From contig NZ_KB849538.1 of NCBI RefSeq assembly GCF_000368565.1, positions 120,001 through 184,000 on the forward strand: DNA of 64,000 bases, read 5' to 3'. Below are positions 10,811 through 64,000 of this stretch, piece after piece. Both the position numbers and the translations under genes were made by a program. The stretch comes from Acinetobacter gerneri DSM 14967 = CIP 107464 = MTCC 9824. Lineage in GTDB: Bacteria; Pseudomonadota; Gammaproteobacteria; Pseudomonadales; Moraxellaceae. The notes under the pieces are model-generated. The model had not been told where the DNA came from. It saw only the letters and a program-made list of their open reading frames with translations, and did not search any database. How positions within the stretch are numbered: the first letter of the stretch is position 1; each line of letters begins with the position of its first letter.

Positions 10811-12370
10811 TCAATCTCTTAGAAATTTATTCAATTTTAATACTGTCAAAACTCTAAAAAAAACTTTCCTATACTCAGGACACGCTATATATAATATCAC
10901 AAAACTTATAAAGCCATATGAAACCACTACAATTAGTGAATTCAATATAAATGCCATGATTTTTTTATTATCAATATAAAAACAATCAATTACAAATTTT
11001 GATAAGGCTAATGAAATAGCTATACAAACAATATAAGTCATTAATTTTTTTATATAATGATAAAAACCTGTTTTAAACCCTAAACTATAAATATAGAAAG
11101 GCCTCCATAAGTTCACTATAACTATTAAACTTATGACTACTCCTGCAATTATTCCTGGCAATCCAAAATAGTATCCTAAAATCATTGACAATCCCAAATT
11201 TATAATTGCTTCAAAAATTGGAGCATATATATCTCCGTATAATCCAAATGCATATACAAATGGGTCTATGACTCTCGTTAAAACCAAAAATAAATATATA
11301 TTCAACCAAACAAAAGCAGTTTCATTAATTATAAATTTTTCACCAACCCATAATCTAATAAAATCATGTCCTTGATAAAATAATGCCATACATAAAATAG
11401 AGGCAATCCAATACCTTAGCACAAAATATTCTTCAAAGAATTTTAAAATTGTATTTTTATTACCATTTGTGACCAAATTACCAATTGCTGGCTGAAAACT
11501 TGAAAATACAGCAGTTATCAAACTTGTAATTCCTAAAATTATCATCATATAATTATCATACATAGTCACCATTGTTAGGCTTACATAGGCATAAATAATC
11601 ATTGGAGTTGTTTGTAACAAAACAAATCCAGCAATTTTATGAAAAAAAAGTTGTTTAGTATGCTTAATTATATTCTTATGTTTATCTTTTAAGATTTTCC
11701 CTTTTTTAACATTAATATCGAGCCATGGATATTCTTTATCAATTATTCTTTTCAAAAAGAAACTAGAACTTATTCCATACATAAGCTCCAATAGTAGCCA
11801 ATACGCGAAACCATTTTCAAAATTTATCACCAAAATTATTTGTAAAATTATTTTTATAATTTGTATTGTTTTCATACTTAAAATTATTTTATATTCTTTC
11901 ATTTCTGCTATTAAAAGAACTTGTTTATAATTTATAAAATATGTCAGCAAAGAAGATATTAACAGTACACAAAAAATACTATATACATACCACAAAGACA
12001 AATGAATTTTACTAAATATTATTGGGAAAAAACACATTAATATTGCAGCCATTCCCATTATTAAATATGCAATATTTCTATAAAGCCAACCCTGAATTGT
12101 AATGATCTCGGTTATTTCTTTTTTATTATTTTCAGCAATCGGTTTATATAATGAAGTAGCGATTGCCGAAACTACCCCAAGTTCAGCCAAGTTCAAAAAA
12201 CCAATTAAATTTGTTGCTAATGTATTTAAACCTAATACGTCTGTACCCAAATTCTTAATAAATACACTTCTTGATACAAAATTCAAAAATAATAAAATTA
12301 CAAAAAATAGTAATGAAATTTTTGCATTAGTTAATACTTTTTTCGTTCTATTTGTGTTTTGCATTCGCAT
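10811..12370 (-). CDS. wzx: Wzx-type lipid-linked oligosaccharide flippase
   Basis: A 519-residue polytopic membrane protein with about twelve to fourteen helices, in the MOP superfamily of polysaccharide exporters. The N-terminus (AKISLLFFVILLFLNFVSRSVFIKNLG) followed by LGLNTLATNLIGFLNLAELGVVSAIATSLY is typical of flippases next to Wzy polymerases. It would move the finished undecaprenyl-PP repeat to the periplasm. The gene is strongly AT-rich. It is the only flippase candidate in the locus, 19 bases downstream of rmlC. Confidence 0.9.
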   Translation of the reverse strand: MRMQNTNRTKKVLTNAKISLLFFVILLFLNFVSRSVFIKNLGTDVLGLNTLATNLIGFLNLAELGVVSAIATSLYKPIAENNKKEITEIITIQGWLYRNIAYLIMGMAAILMCFFPIIFSKIHLSLWYVYSIFCVLLISSLLTYFINYKQVLLIAEMKEYKIILSMKTIQIIKIILQIILVINFENGFAYWLLLELMYGISSSFFLKRIIDKEYPWLDINVKKGKILKDKHKNIIKHTKQLFFHKIAGFVLLQTTPMIIYAYVSLTMVTMYDNYMMIILGITSLITAVFSSFQPAIGNLVTNGNKNTILKFFEEYFVLRYWIASILCMALFYQGHDFIRLWVGEKFIINETAFVWLNIYLFLVLTRVIDPFVYAFGLYGDIYAPIFEAIINLGLSMILGYYFGLPGIIAGVVISLIVIVNLWRPFYIYSLGFKTGFYHYIKKLMTYIVCIAISLALSKFVIDCFYIDNKKIMAFILNSLIVVVSYGFISFVILYIACPEYRKVFFRVLTVLKLNKFLRD

Positions 12371-60540: not shown

Positions 60541-60670
60541 TTTGTCCTCAAATTTTCAATTTTAATAATGCAAAATCAAATCAACCTCTATATCATGCGC
60601 TCAAATGTTCACCAATTAAATATTTTTAAGTAACAAGACCATGCCTTAGTGGATTGGGTTAGAGGGAATG

Positions 60671-61420
60671 ATGAAAATTTCAAAATGTACATTACTTACG
60701 ACAACTTTTTTGTTGAGTTGCTTTACTCATGCAGACTTTATAGGCTTAAAAGGCGATGTAAATTATTGGTATTTTAATGGTTCTATTGATAACAAAAATA
60801 ATTCTAGCCTGTCCAACTCTACGGGAAACGATAATTTATTGCTCGATCCCTATGCAGGACTATCAAATAAAAATGACATAAAACATGATGGTGCAATACA
60901 AGCCTCTATCGCATTTGAACATCCAATTCCGCTCTTGCCCAATATAAAAATCAAATATACCGATCTAAATACAAGCACTAACAATGGTCAATATGCCTCA
61001 AATAAAGTTGATCTAACCAATACCGACTATATTTTATATTATGAAATACTCGACAATATTGTTAGTGCTGATATTGGTTTAGGTATGGCAAATATTGATG
61101 GAAAAATCAAACAATATAATGCCCTACAATCATTCAATTCATCACTTTCTGACAATGCACCTATTGCATATGCATCTGTAGGAGCTAAATTACCATTTAC
61201 AGGTTTAAGTGCCAAAGGTGAAGTGGTTGTTGGAGCAAATAGTGATGTGACATTAACTGATGTCCAAGCTGAGCTACAATACGATTTTGTTCAAAGTATG
61301 CTGTTGGATGTTGGAGCAAAAGTCGGCTATCGCTACATGTATATTGATGTTGATGAAAATAAAACCAAATATAAGCTGGACTTTAATGGGCCTTATATCG
61401 GTTTAAATGCGCATTTTTAA
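60671..61420 (+). CDS. Outer-membrane beta-barrel protein (TIGR04219-type)
   Basis: A 249-residue protein with a signal peptide (KISKCTLLTTTFLLSCFTHA) and alternating beta-strand sequence to the end: FIGLKGDVNYWYFNGSI, PILPNIKIKYTDL-like strands, DNIVSADIGLGMANIDGKIKQY, and a terminal DFNGPYIGLNAHF ending in phenylalanine, the usual signal for barrel insertion. It fits the TIGR04219 outer-membrane family. GAGGGA precedes two adjacent ATGs (60668, 60671); the second has better spacing. Function unknown; the next element downstream is the candidate Rsm-type RNA. Confidence 0.8.
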   Translation: MKISKCTLLTTTFLLSCFTHADFIGLKGDVNYWYFNGSIDNKNNSSLSNSTGNDNLLLDPYAGLSNKNDIKHDGAIQASIAFEHPIPLLPNIKIKYTDLNTSTNNGQYASNKVDLTNTDYILYYEILDNIVSADIGLGMANIDGKIKQYNALQSFNSSLSDNAPIAYASVGAKLPFTGLSAKGEVVVGANSDVTLTDVQAELQYDFVQSMLLDVGAKVGYRYMYIDVDENKTKYKLDFNGPYIGLNAHF

Positions 61421-61459: not shown

Positions 61460-61477
61460 TGTAAGCAATTTCTTACA
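61460..61477 (+). promoter_or_regulatory. GacA-type upstream activating sequence
   Basis: TGTAAGCAATTTCTTACA matches the published GacA/UvrY box consensus TGTAAG-N6-CTTACA exactly. Its centre lies about 65 bases before the estimated RNA start near 61534, the same offset as before rsmX/Y/Z in Pseudomonas. A -10-like TATTAT is at 61522-61527. Confidence 0.85.
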
Positions 61478-61533
61478 AGTTATGCCGAATTTTGCGTATA
61501 GTCAGAATAGCTCGATTTTTATATTATGAACTC

Positions 61534-61662
61534 ATCAGGGAACAGGAAGTTTCCAGTAAAAATAAGAATAAATATGACAATAACGCAGGATGCGAAAGGT
61601 AGGACAGGAGTTATACCTTATAACCAATACGAAAACCCCTCGACAGGATGTCGGGGGTTTTT
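61534..61662 (+). ncRNA. Candidate Rsm/CsrB-class small RNA (CsrA-sequestering), about 130 nt
   Basis: No protein-coding role fits this gap. The expected RNA has six GGA triplets, all in or beside hairpin loops. Hairpin 1 (61538-61554): GGGAA/TTTCC around CAGGAAG. Hairpin 2 (61584-61594): CGCA-GGA-TGCG. Hairpin 3 (61596-61619): AAGGTA/TACCTT around a loop with two GGA. Hairpin 4 (61632-61661): terminator stem whose loop displays ACAGGATGT, close to the CsrA SELEX site. The GacA box lies upstream. Size and design equal RsmY/Z. The 5' end is estimated; not confirmed by homology search. Confidence 0.85.
61632..61662 (+). terminator. Terminator of the candidate Rsm-class RNA
   Basis: AAAACCCC(T)CGACA-gga-TGTCGGGGGTTTTT, a 13-base stem with one bulged T, ending in T5. 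Its loop is a CsrA-type GGA site. Confidence 0.93.
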
Positions 61663-61794
61663 CATTTATATGCTTCAATTTATTTGAACATCTATATTTT
61701 TATAAAATTCACTCTCTAAAATGAATAGAGTCTATTGGCATATCACAACTGAATTGCATTAATAAAAGCTACTTTATTTGCAAATTTACAGCTT

Positions 61795-63390
61795 TCATTC
61801 TGTTTTAATTTGATACTTTTCACTTAATACTTTTGCTAAACGCTGACTATGTTCAATTAAACGATCTAACCATCTCTGAGCAGCAAACAACTCCAAGCTA
61901 TAAGCTGCATTTAACTGATGCTTTTGTGAATAATGAACAATATCATTCCTAATTTCAGATCTATGAGCTTCATTCCATTGTTTTAAGTTATTTAAATCAA
62001 AGTCTAAATCTTGCATGTTTTTTGCAGATATAAGATCTTGTGCTTCTTTTAAATGATTATCCAAAATTTGTACATAATCCAACGCTAAATGATAAAGCGA
62101 AGGTTCTGTACTCATTTCTGCATAACTTGTCATCGAGCCTAAATCACTTCTTAGCACACGCAAATAGACCATAATCCGAAGCAGATATATTAGATTCTTC
62201 TGCTCTTTTTCATTTTCTAAAATCGGGATTTCACTCAAATAAAACTGTAATGCCAAAATATATTCATCAATTTTAGCGAGCTGATCGTTTGAAGGCCGAA
62301 TACTTTCTTGGATCATTTTTTTGATCATGGAAAGTACGTCAAAAATACAGTAATTCATCACTTTAGAAGCTGCATTTATTGCTAAAGCAGGAACAGACAA
62401 ACTGGATCGATCCAACATTTGCAGCACTGATGGGGAATGGTCTGGAATCAATCGTGTAATCAAACTTTCAATTTGCTTTAAAAATGGAATAAAAATAAAG
62501 ATTCCCATCAAGCTAAAACAAGTATGAAAGGCAGCAACCAAAATAATATTATCCCAATTCGATACATAAGCATTATTTTTATAAAGCCATAAAAATGCAG
62601 GCATCAATATAAATACGGCAAATACTGCAGAAATTATTTTAAATATCACATGAACTGCTGCTGTTCTTTTGGCATCAACAGTTGCACTTAGTGCAGCTAA
62701 AACTGATGTAAAAACTGTTCCTATATTTAGCCCAATGACTAGACAAAAAGCCTGCTGTAAATCGATCGCATTACTTGCCAAAGCAGCAATTGTTGCCGTT
62801 ACGGCTGCACTTGAAGATTGCATCAATATTGTCATCACAATACCAATCACAATAATCAGACATTGACTGAGCAAAGTATCACTAGGATATTGAGCAAGAT
62901 TTACTTTTGAAGCAAAGTCAGACATCGCTATTTGCAAAATATCGATACCAAAAAAGATCAGCCCAAATCCAGCAATCGTCAATCCCAACAAAGCCAAACG
63001 GCCTTTGGCAAATAACTTTAAAATCGCTCCGATTGCAATTAAAGGTAAAGCAATCTGAGCAATAGAAAACTTAACCCCAAGAAATGCCACCATCCAGCCT
63101 GTGCTGGTGCTTCCTAAACTTGCCCCAATCACAACACCTATGGCATGTACAAAACTTAAAACACCGGCACTAACAAACCCAATCGTTGCCAAAGTCGTCG
63201 CTGTCGATGATTGAACAATGAGTGTAAGTACTGCACCAGTCAAGATTGCCTTAAAAGTTGAACCTGTAAATTTTGAAAGCCAAACACGAATAGTTTCCCC
63301 TGCCATTTCTTTGAGACTATCGGTCATCAAAGTCATGCCTAGTAGAAACAGCCCTATGCCTCCGCATAACTGAGTTATTGTTATAAACAT
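61795..63390 (-). CDS. Na/Pi-cotransporter family protein with PhoU-like C-terminal domain
   Basis: A 531-residue membrane protein. The N-terminal 310 residues hold two inverted repeats of the Na_Pi_cotrans domain (LTLIVQSSTATTLATIGFVSAG, and later TILMQSSSAAVTATIAALAS; the QSSS motifs form the substrate site) and about nine helices. The C-terminal 200 residues are helical and PhoU-like (YCIFDVLSMIKKMIQESI, YLLRIMVYLRVLRSDLGSM). It probably moves phosphate or an anion with sodium. GGGGA six bases upstream supports the ATG at 63390. Confidence 0.9.
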   Translation of the reverse strand: MFITITQLCGGIGLFLLGMTLMTDSLKEMAGETIRVWLSKFTGSTFKAILTGAVLTLIVQSSTATTLATIGFVSAGVLSFVHAIGVVIGASLGSTSTGWMVAFLGVKFSIAQIALPLIAIGAILKLFAKGRLALLGLTIAGFGLIFFGIDILQIAMSDFASKVNLAQYPSDTLLSQCLIIVIGIVMTILMQSSSAAVTATIAALASNAIDLQQAFCLVIGLNIGTVFTSVLAALSATVDAKRTAAVHVIFKIISAVFAVFILMPAFLWLYKNNAYVSNWDNIILVAAFHTCFSLMGIFIFIPFLKQIESLITRLIPDHSPSVLQMLDRSSLSVPALAINAASKVMNYCIFDVLSMIKKMIQESIRPSNDQLAKIDEYILALQFYLSEIPILENEKEQKNLIYLLRIMVYLRVLRSDLGSMTSYAEMSTEPSLYHLALDYVQILDNHLKEAQDLISAKNMQDLDFDLNNLKQWNEAHRSEIRNDIVHYSQKHQLNAAYSLELFAAQRWLDRLIEHSQRLAKVLSEKYQIKTE

Positions 63391-63542
63391 CACATCCCCG
63401 TAAAAGTTTTTATTTTAGTTATAACAATATATAAATCATGAAAATAATCTAGTTTAGAAAATGCACAACACAACCATGTTTTAAAAATAAAGATAATATG
63501 AATCACATTATTTACAAAAAAATATAATCGTTATTTTCAGGC

Positions 63543-63587: not shown

Positions 63588-63702
63588 AGCTGGCGATGAC
63601 TTACTCTCACATGGGTAACCCCACACTACCATCAGCGCGAAGAGGTTTCACTTCTGAGTTCGGGAAGGGATCAGGTGGTTCACTCTTGCTATTGTCGCCA
63701 GC
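63588..63702 (-). rRNA. rrf: 5S ribosomal RNA
   Basis: A 115-nt minus-strand sequence beginning GCTGGCGACAATAGCAAGAG and ending CGCCAGCT, whose ends pair to form helix I. It contains the invariant CCCGAACTCAGAAGTGAAAC and the GCGCTGATGGTAGTGTGGGG segments, and is very like Acinetobacter 5S RNA. It follows the 23S gene after a spacer of about 170 bases, in the standard operon order. Confidence 0.97.
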
Positions 63703-63872: not shown

Positions 63873-64000
63873 ATAGTCAAGCCTCACGATCAATTAGTAT
63901 TGGTCAGCTTCACACGTCACCGTGCTTCCACATCCAACCTATCAACGTCCTAGTCTCGAACGGATCTTTAGAGGACATAAAGTCCTAGGGAAATCTTATC
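63873..64000 (-). rRNA. rrl: 23S ribosomal RNA, 3' end (continues beyond the window)
   Basis: Minus-strand sequence ending ...CTAATTGATCGTGAGGCTTGAC, matching the 3' terminal region of gammaproteobacterial 23S RNA. The last 128 bases are inside the window; the rest lies to the right. The exact 3' end was estimated from the conserved GTGAGGCTT and could be off by a few bases. Confidence 0.95.

Follow-up and report, generated by a model that had tools for sequence, protein, structure and literature searches.

What does a gap of about 130 nt in Acinetobacter gerneri DSM 14967 encode, if it encodes anything? We analysed the 64,000-nt stretch of contig NZ_KB849538.1 that contains the gap (positions 120,001 to 184,000; hereafter the window). 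A sequence-only reading had proposed a regulatory RNA of the Rsm/CsrB class at this place. We now consider it highly probable that the stretch is an sRNA of about 130 nt from a multi-copy Acinetobacter family, likely driven by GacA and titrating CsrA; GacA binding, transcription of the window copy, CsrA binding and titration are what we infer from the features described below.

Fold, GGA motifs and predicted promoter elements of the window locus

The sRNA stretch lies on the forward strand between an upstream ORF (60668–61420) and a convergent ORF (61795–63393). Its predicted features are collected in Table 1. The minimum free energy of positions 61534–61675 was −37.2 kcal/mol in RNAfold (z −3.74), and none of 200 dinucleotide shuffles was as stable. 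The fold and a loop test bore out the coordinates, the strand and the four GGA-loop hairpins of the sequence-only reading; the strong terminator that it placed at the 3′ end was likewise recovered, as hairpin 4. Beyond the sRNA locus, the minus strand of the window carries a 5S rRNA (63588–63702) and the 3′ end of a 23S rRNA (63873–64000).

Table 1. Predicted features of the sRNA locus in the window.
Feature	Position	Strand	Basis
GacA/UvrY-type box TGTAAGCAATTTCTTACA	61460..61477	+	0 mismatches to TGTAAG-N6-CTTACA
−10-like element TATATTAT, two overlapping hexamers, each 5/6 to TATAAT	61520..61527	+	sequence
Rsm/CsrB-class sRNA, ~130 nt	61534..61662	+	R1 covariance match
Hairpin 1, loop AGGAA, GGA 61545–61547	61538..61554	+	RNAfold
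Hairpin 2, CGCA-GGA-TGCG	61584..61594	+	RNAfold
Hairpin 3, loop AGGA, GGA 61607–61609	61596..61619	+	RNAfold
Hairpin 4, CGACA-GGA-TGTCG at tip of intrinsic terminator, with T run	61632..61663	+	RNAfold

Six GGA triplets are indeed present (at 61539, 61545, 61588, 61602, 61607 and 61646), but the claim that this number far exceeds chance did not hold: at least six were reached by 3.2% of 5000 mononucleotide shuffles and by 19.7% of 5000 dinucleotide shuffles. A density of six GGA per 129 nt occurs on the forward strand of the window at the sRNA alone, and on the minus strand in five runs of positions. The longer motif CAGGA is found four times in the 129 nt, each time in a hairpin loop, and no shuffle among 5000 of either kind contained as many. 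The bare GGA count is weak evidence; the CAGGA motif in its hairpin context is rare.

The box, which the sequence-only reading had overlooked, starts 74 bases 5′ of the predicted sRNA start and 39 nt after the stop codon of the upstream ORF. PMC4950607 and PMC4682653 set out the consensus TGTAAG-N6-CTTACA together with its function at rsmY and rsmZ and in control by UvrY in E. coli. This exact 18-bp match is the only one in the window at up to two mismatches. Because about three matches would be expected there by chance at two mismatches, the weight of the box lies in its exactness, its position and its conservation among the copies described below. Of 90 aligned copies, 84 have their best TATAAT-like hexamer 60–62 nt downstream of where the box starts.

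A covarying multi-copy family in Acinetobacter

A DNA query that included the box matched 163 of the 175 genomes of the genus, and paralogues of the sRNA are present in the A. gerneri genome itself. We used 59 of 74 matches for an alignment (A1), in which one of the 59 rows duplicates another; left out were seven repeats from the same place, a full copy (L024) close to another (L023), two matches below 30 bits and five short antisense matches. From the 59 aligned copies, with the box excluded, we built a covariance model (R1). It matched the window at 61529–61665 with 118.5 bits (E 6.4e-19), the window copy being one of the 59 rows from which it was built.

The RNAalifold consensus of the 59 copies has 24 pairs, of which 16 show two-sided changes (4 of 5 pairs in hairpin 1, 2 of 6 in hairpin 3 and 10 of 13 in hairpin 4). 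In a separate count, 98.8% of cells were paired, as against 34–54% when partners were slid. Four measures exceeded every one of 500 shuffles: paired cells, the covariation score, and two-sided change counted by pair and by cell. The fifth, further pair types, was equalled or exceeded in 3 of the 500. Hairpins 3 and 4 carry GGA in the loop in every one of the 59 copies, and hairpin 1 does so in all but one (58). The middle region contains GGA in 58 copies and presents it in a hairpin loop in 47; hairpin 2 is absent from the RNAalifold consensus fold of these copies. The conservation that the sequence-only reading had named as a check is found in the aligned Acinetobacter copies, with GGA loops kept and compensatory changes in the stems.

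These results make a base-pairing sRNA of the Hfq type, whose GGA loops would be incidental or would serve as seed loops, an improbable alternative. A stand-alone RNA of about 130 nt with an intrinsic terminator would suit that class, and A. baumannii is described in PMC12802169, as far as consulted, as making more than 100 sRNAs, with Hfq likely essential in many strains. However, the most constant part of the RNA is its GGA loops rather than a linear seed, the linker joining hairpins 1 and 2 differs among the copies in both length and sequence, and the promoter bears a Gac-type box.

At an E value of 0.01, R1 found matches in 172 of the 175 Acinetobacter genomes, with a median of 6 and a maximum of 15 per genome and at least ten in 20 genomes; these counts may run too high at that threshold, and strict filters and a ceiling of 18 scored candidates for each genome limit them. 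The A. gerneri genome holds nine strong copies, two of them near-identical on a 20-kb contig. This number was lowered from ten because one candidate (L103) was rejected; it and a candidate in another genome (L087 in G086) were weak R1 matches with 0 and 1 GGA, respectively, and lacked a box at the place. At E 0.001 R1 found none in 173 genomes of Moraxellaceae outside Acinetobacter. A search of 293 genomes from the order at E 0.01 yielded five matches, all weak (E 9e-4 to 7e-3). G271, which belongs to Moraxellaceae, accounts for one; three from other genomes were inspected and rejected, having 0–2 GGA and no box. In several places at least three family copies lie within 2–5 kb of one another (L051, L058, L117 and G006:C1:1466146-1468131), which suggests growth of the family by local duplication.

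The box is shared by the copies at a nearly fixed distance. Three genomes searched with R1 held 19 strong copies, of which 18 had a box of at least 9/12 at 68–70 nt before the R1 start, the 19th being masked there. Among fetched loci, the same was true of 91 of 93 distinct copies, at 66–70 nt; the box was perfect in 14 and at least 10/12 in 82, and a control stretch reached a maximum of 8/12. The latter set came from 122 matches, of which 94 were kept after repeats and those with less than 100 nt upstream had been dropped, and 93 scored above 40 bits. The three-genome test, in which R1 does not contain the box, is the cleaner one because some of the fetched loci came from the box-containing query. 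At position 5 of the box C is commoner than A (52 versus 28 of the 93 copies), and most copies deviate from the TGTAAG half-site.

The left half-site of the family is TGTACG more often than TGTAAG, and differs both from the Pseudomonas and E. coli consensus and from the box proposed in PMC12609611, where a MEME search in A. baumannii led to a different putative GacA box, CAAAWWAAAGTTGCA. Gel shifts with purified GacA of A. baumannii are reported in PMC10746170 for promoters of protein genes. GacA may act by both routes, at protein-gene promoters and via sRNAs.

The stretch could also be nothing more than a 3′ UTR or terminator belonging to ORF 60668–61420, or a terminator that this ORF has in common with the convergent gene. 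This would fit the position of the stretch between the two ORFs and the terminator at its end, but is very improbable given a box of its own beyond the stop codon and the other copies, which adjoin unrelated genes yet retain box and spacing.

Published data, taken with synteny, probably link the family to transcription. By RNA-seq of A. baumannii AB5075, Weiss et al. detected four similar sRNAs of 128–147 nt, art5, art56, art75 and art77, which form their Group 3 and have no function assigned in the consulted text (PMC5320573). According to Table 1 of that paper, art56 and tmRNA are on one strand, with art56 15,926 nt to the 5′ side. We found a family copy 5′ of tmRNA, in the same strand and order, at 15,978 nt in one genome (G006; box perfect) and at about 15,964 nt in another (G068). 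By this synteny, art56 is very likely a member of the family, and print and synteny together support that one orthologous member is transcribed in AB5075. The loci of art5 and art75 agree with copies in G068 by rough position only. A literature search with the four locus names returned PMC5320573 alone.

Plasmid-borne copies and further Rsm-like candidates

Sequence searches of plasmid records returned many matches. With the A. gerneri copy as query, 238 records were matched, all from Acinetobacter, 41 of them covering more than 80% of the query at a single place. A chromosomal copy of the A. baumannii type matched 440 records (419 Acinetobacter; 90 above 80%), and the copy of plasmid pMAC matched 284 (283 Acinetobacter; 254 above 80%). 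Records of Klebsiella, Raoultella or Enterobacter made up 21 of the 440 and 1 of the 284. These counts are upper figures, since some records are chromosome-sized and others exceed 280 kb. In one of the latter (NZ_CP043459), pilT genes adjoin the match. Three records of 3.66–4.09 Mb filed as plasmids (NZ_CP077849.1, NZ_CP104448.1 and NZ_CP064203.1) look misfiled. Among the matches listed for the three queries (130, with some records recurring), 128 had no annotated feature and two fell on a hypothetical protein; none of the 30 listed for the pMAC query had an annotated feature at the match.

From the listed matches we chose 13 plasmid copies, not at random, and excluded two loci (L114 and L117) as chromosomal. 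R1 matched all 13 (L112, L113, L115, L116, L120–L127 and L152), including the copy on pAB1 of A. baumannii ATCC 17978 (L152; 106 bits), and each had a box of at least 9/12 at 68–71 nt upstream. Five of them (L115, L123, L124, L125 and L152) retain a GGA loop in each of hairpins 1, 3 and 4, and in the pAB1 copy all four hairpins passed the test. In the other eight, one or more of these three hairpins have lost their GGA; the pMAC copy has one clean loop left. Judged by their loops, the plasmid copies are mixed, some apparently working and others not.

A decayed plasmid-borne member with a box is common to pMAC (L095, a 9,540-bp contig of the pMAC type) and to the 20-kb contig of A. gerneri with its two near-identical copies (C34:8714-8847 and 10999-11132), and genome G006 has a 9,540-bp contig with a copy identical to that of pMAC. 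In a phage collection, six contigs of 'Acinetobacter phage MD-2021a' (including CAKLQF020000013.1) gave matches in up to four places each; we took these as bacterial chromosome and did not count them as phage copies. As phage entries, these sRNA-bearing contigs look misfiled.

Such abundance would also suit an element with no regulatory function, be it a mobile RNA cassette or a dispersed repeat, and the up to 15 matches per genome, the tandem clusters, the hundreds of plasmid records and the lost loops of the eight plasmid copies are in keeping with it. We nevertheless regard this as very unlikely, because compensatory changes preserve the stems and the GGA loops while the linkers drift, and the art56 copy holds its position relative to tmRNA in AB5075, G006 and G068. 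The CsrA-titrating sRNA family remains our preferred reading. Starting from it, we raise as a tentative idea, to which we give somewhat less than even chances, that a plasmid such as pAB1, with its GacA-boxed sponge RNA, adds predicted CsrA sites to the cell it enters and shifts the CsrA balance of the host by means of RNA, and that genomes came to hold as many as 15 Rsm RNAs through repeated gain of such copies plus local duplication. If true, this would be plasmid-to-host control through RNA, without a regulator protein; that plasmids supply a CsrA sponge of their own is an idea that can be tested.

Searching the A. gerneri genome for the box alone gave three places with zero mismatches, each 5′ of a GGA-rich, RNA-like stretch, and ten more with one mismatch. 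Among the latter, one heads a family copy (L011) and one a decayed plasmid copy (L009); at seven others nothing Rsm-like was seen, inspection covering those with at least four GGA downstream. One of the perfect boxes belongs to a second Rsm-like RNA, unrelated to the family, on the minus strand (L001, 1265–1525; C20:254489-254749), with eight GGA and a strong terminator. It matched 35 of 41 sampled genomes of the genus with one full copy in each; in 20 of 20 inspected loci the box was at least 10/12, and there were 6–9 GGA. No Rfam family scored above its cut-off on this RNA, and R1 did not pick it up in the A. gerneri genome. The tenth of the one-mismatch boxes (11/12) lies at another minus-strand locus (L010, from 1501; C36:149911-149928), where four GGA and a hairpin resembling a terminator come after it. 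This locus does not belong to the R1 family; from these features it is possibly a third Rsm-like RNA.

Predicted CsrA titration and known Rsm systems

The A. gerneri genome encodes CsrA and a candidate GacA. CsrA (PF02599, 91.8 bits) has a single match, an intact gene for 85 aa. A GacA-like response regulator of 211 aa is also intact and scored 267.2 bits with NF007018, slightly below the cut-off of 280 and well ahead of the next best protein (79.3). Elsewhere in the genus, the literature describes A. baumannii as needing csrA to grow on rich medium (PMC12802169) and GacS/GacA as a global regulator in that species (PMC5295007). In A. baylyi, a growth phenotype caused by loss of gacA depends on csrA; noncoding RNAs that act by sequestration are proposed in that study (PMC12455638). 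In the portions consulted, the GacA studies PMC12609611 and PMC10746170 never mention CsrA, and the former discusses the Rsm pathway of Pseudomonas.

Judged by sequence, the locus has much of what is expected of an Rsm/CsrB-class gene: GGA hairpin loops, covarying stems, a box at a fixed upstream distance, a stand-alone gene with its intrinsic terminator, and a genome that encodes CsrA. A gacA-like gene, of which the product scores slightly under the NF007018 cut-off, is in keeping with this. At the level of sequence, this supports the original assignment to the CsrA-titrating RNAs of the RsmX/Y/Z kind, with titration itself a prediction. The Rfam models proposed for confirming it did not do so. 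At the gathering threshold no Rsm or Csr family matched the window sRNA, and in a listing to E 10, from which the program omitted one lower-scoring match of a shared clan, RsmY (RF00195) stood at 13.5 bits (cut-off 57), with RsmZ, CsrB and CsrC absent.

The simplest reading is a Gac/Rsm cascade. GacS/GacA signalling would likely switch the sRNA on through GacA at the box; the GGA hairpin loops would bind CsrA dimers, and CsrA would be pulled off its mRNA targets, which would thereby be released. Many copies would be additive and act as a dosage-tunable sponge, to which intact plasmid copies would contribute. Deletion of a single copy is then predicted to have little effect. An RNA link between csrA and GacS/GacA in A. 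baumannii is, in the parts consulted of PMC12455638, PMC7366521 and PMC5568370, proposed or predicted only; the family offers concrete loci for it, and a likely function for an expressed but unassigned group of sRNAs.

RNAs of this kind are already known, also from this genus. Table 1 of PMC7366521 gives RsmX, RsmY and RsmZ for A. baumannii in brackets, which denote uncharacterised finds from genome inspection, citing Kulkarni 2006, and Table 2 of PMC5568370 adds two predicted loci in A. baylyi ADP1. These earlier predictions share class, function and genus with the family and are likened to it by description, not by place; in the tables as consulted they comprise three names and two added loci, with plasmid copies unlisted. 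The tentative remark in the sequence-only reading that Acinetobacter has no well-described RNA of the class stands only in part, as Rsm-type RNAs had been predicted before and art56 is very likely a member detected by RNA-seq. Our literature search, with few subscription papers within reach, found no paper naming plasmid-borne Rsm RNAs or the ~130-nt family. Part of the family findings may perhaps already be contained in a 2025 mBio paper on A. baumannii CsrA, in the 2018 primary transcriptome of ATCC 17978 or in the review PMC9810633, in which 'Rsm sRNA' occurs once. Within the literature searched, the genus-wide multi-copy family, the link to Group 3 and the plasmid copies look new.

The RsmX, RsmY and RsmZ RNAs of Pseudomonas are similar to the Acinetobacter sRNA in length and terminator. 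They too are small RNAs with several GGA loops, and TGTAAG-N6-CTTACA lies upstream of rsmY and rsmZ. RsmX is present in several copies in a number of pseudomonads (PMC4950607, in part). The Acinetobacter family differs from them in sequence, in its median of six and maximum of 15 matches per genome and in having plasmid copies. The Group 3 sRNAs resemble the family in length and in combining a short hairpin that has a conserved loop with an extended hairpin; as published they carry no function and no CsrA or Gac link ('csr' and 'rsm' have 0 occurrences in the consulted text of PMC5320573), and we liken art56 to the family by place, not by sequence.

An expanded set is known from Azotobacter vinelandii, where RsmZ1–7 and RsmY1–2 give nine Rsm RNAs in one genome (PMC7366521, Table 1), compared with up to 15 per genome in the Acinetobacter family. 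The likeness is one of copy number, not of sequence, and concerns another genus, for which plasmid copies are unmentioned in the part consulted. RsmQ, finally, is a plasmid-encoded part that taps the Rsm/Csr system of the host (PMC9928087, consulted in part), as the Acinetobacter plasmids may do; RsmQ is a protein, a CsrA homologue, whereas the Acinetobacter plasmids carry a predicted sponge RNA.
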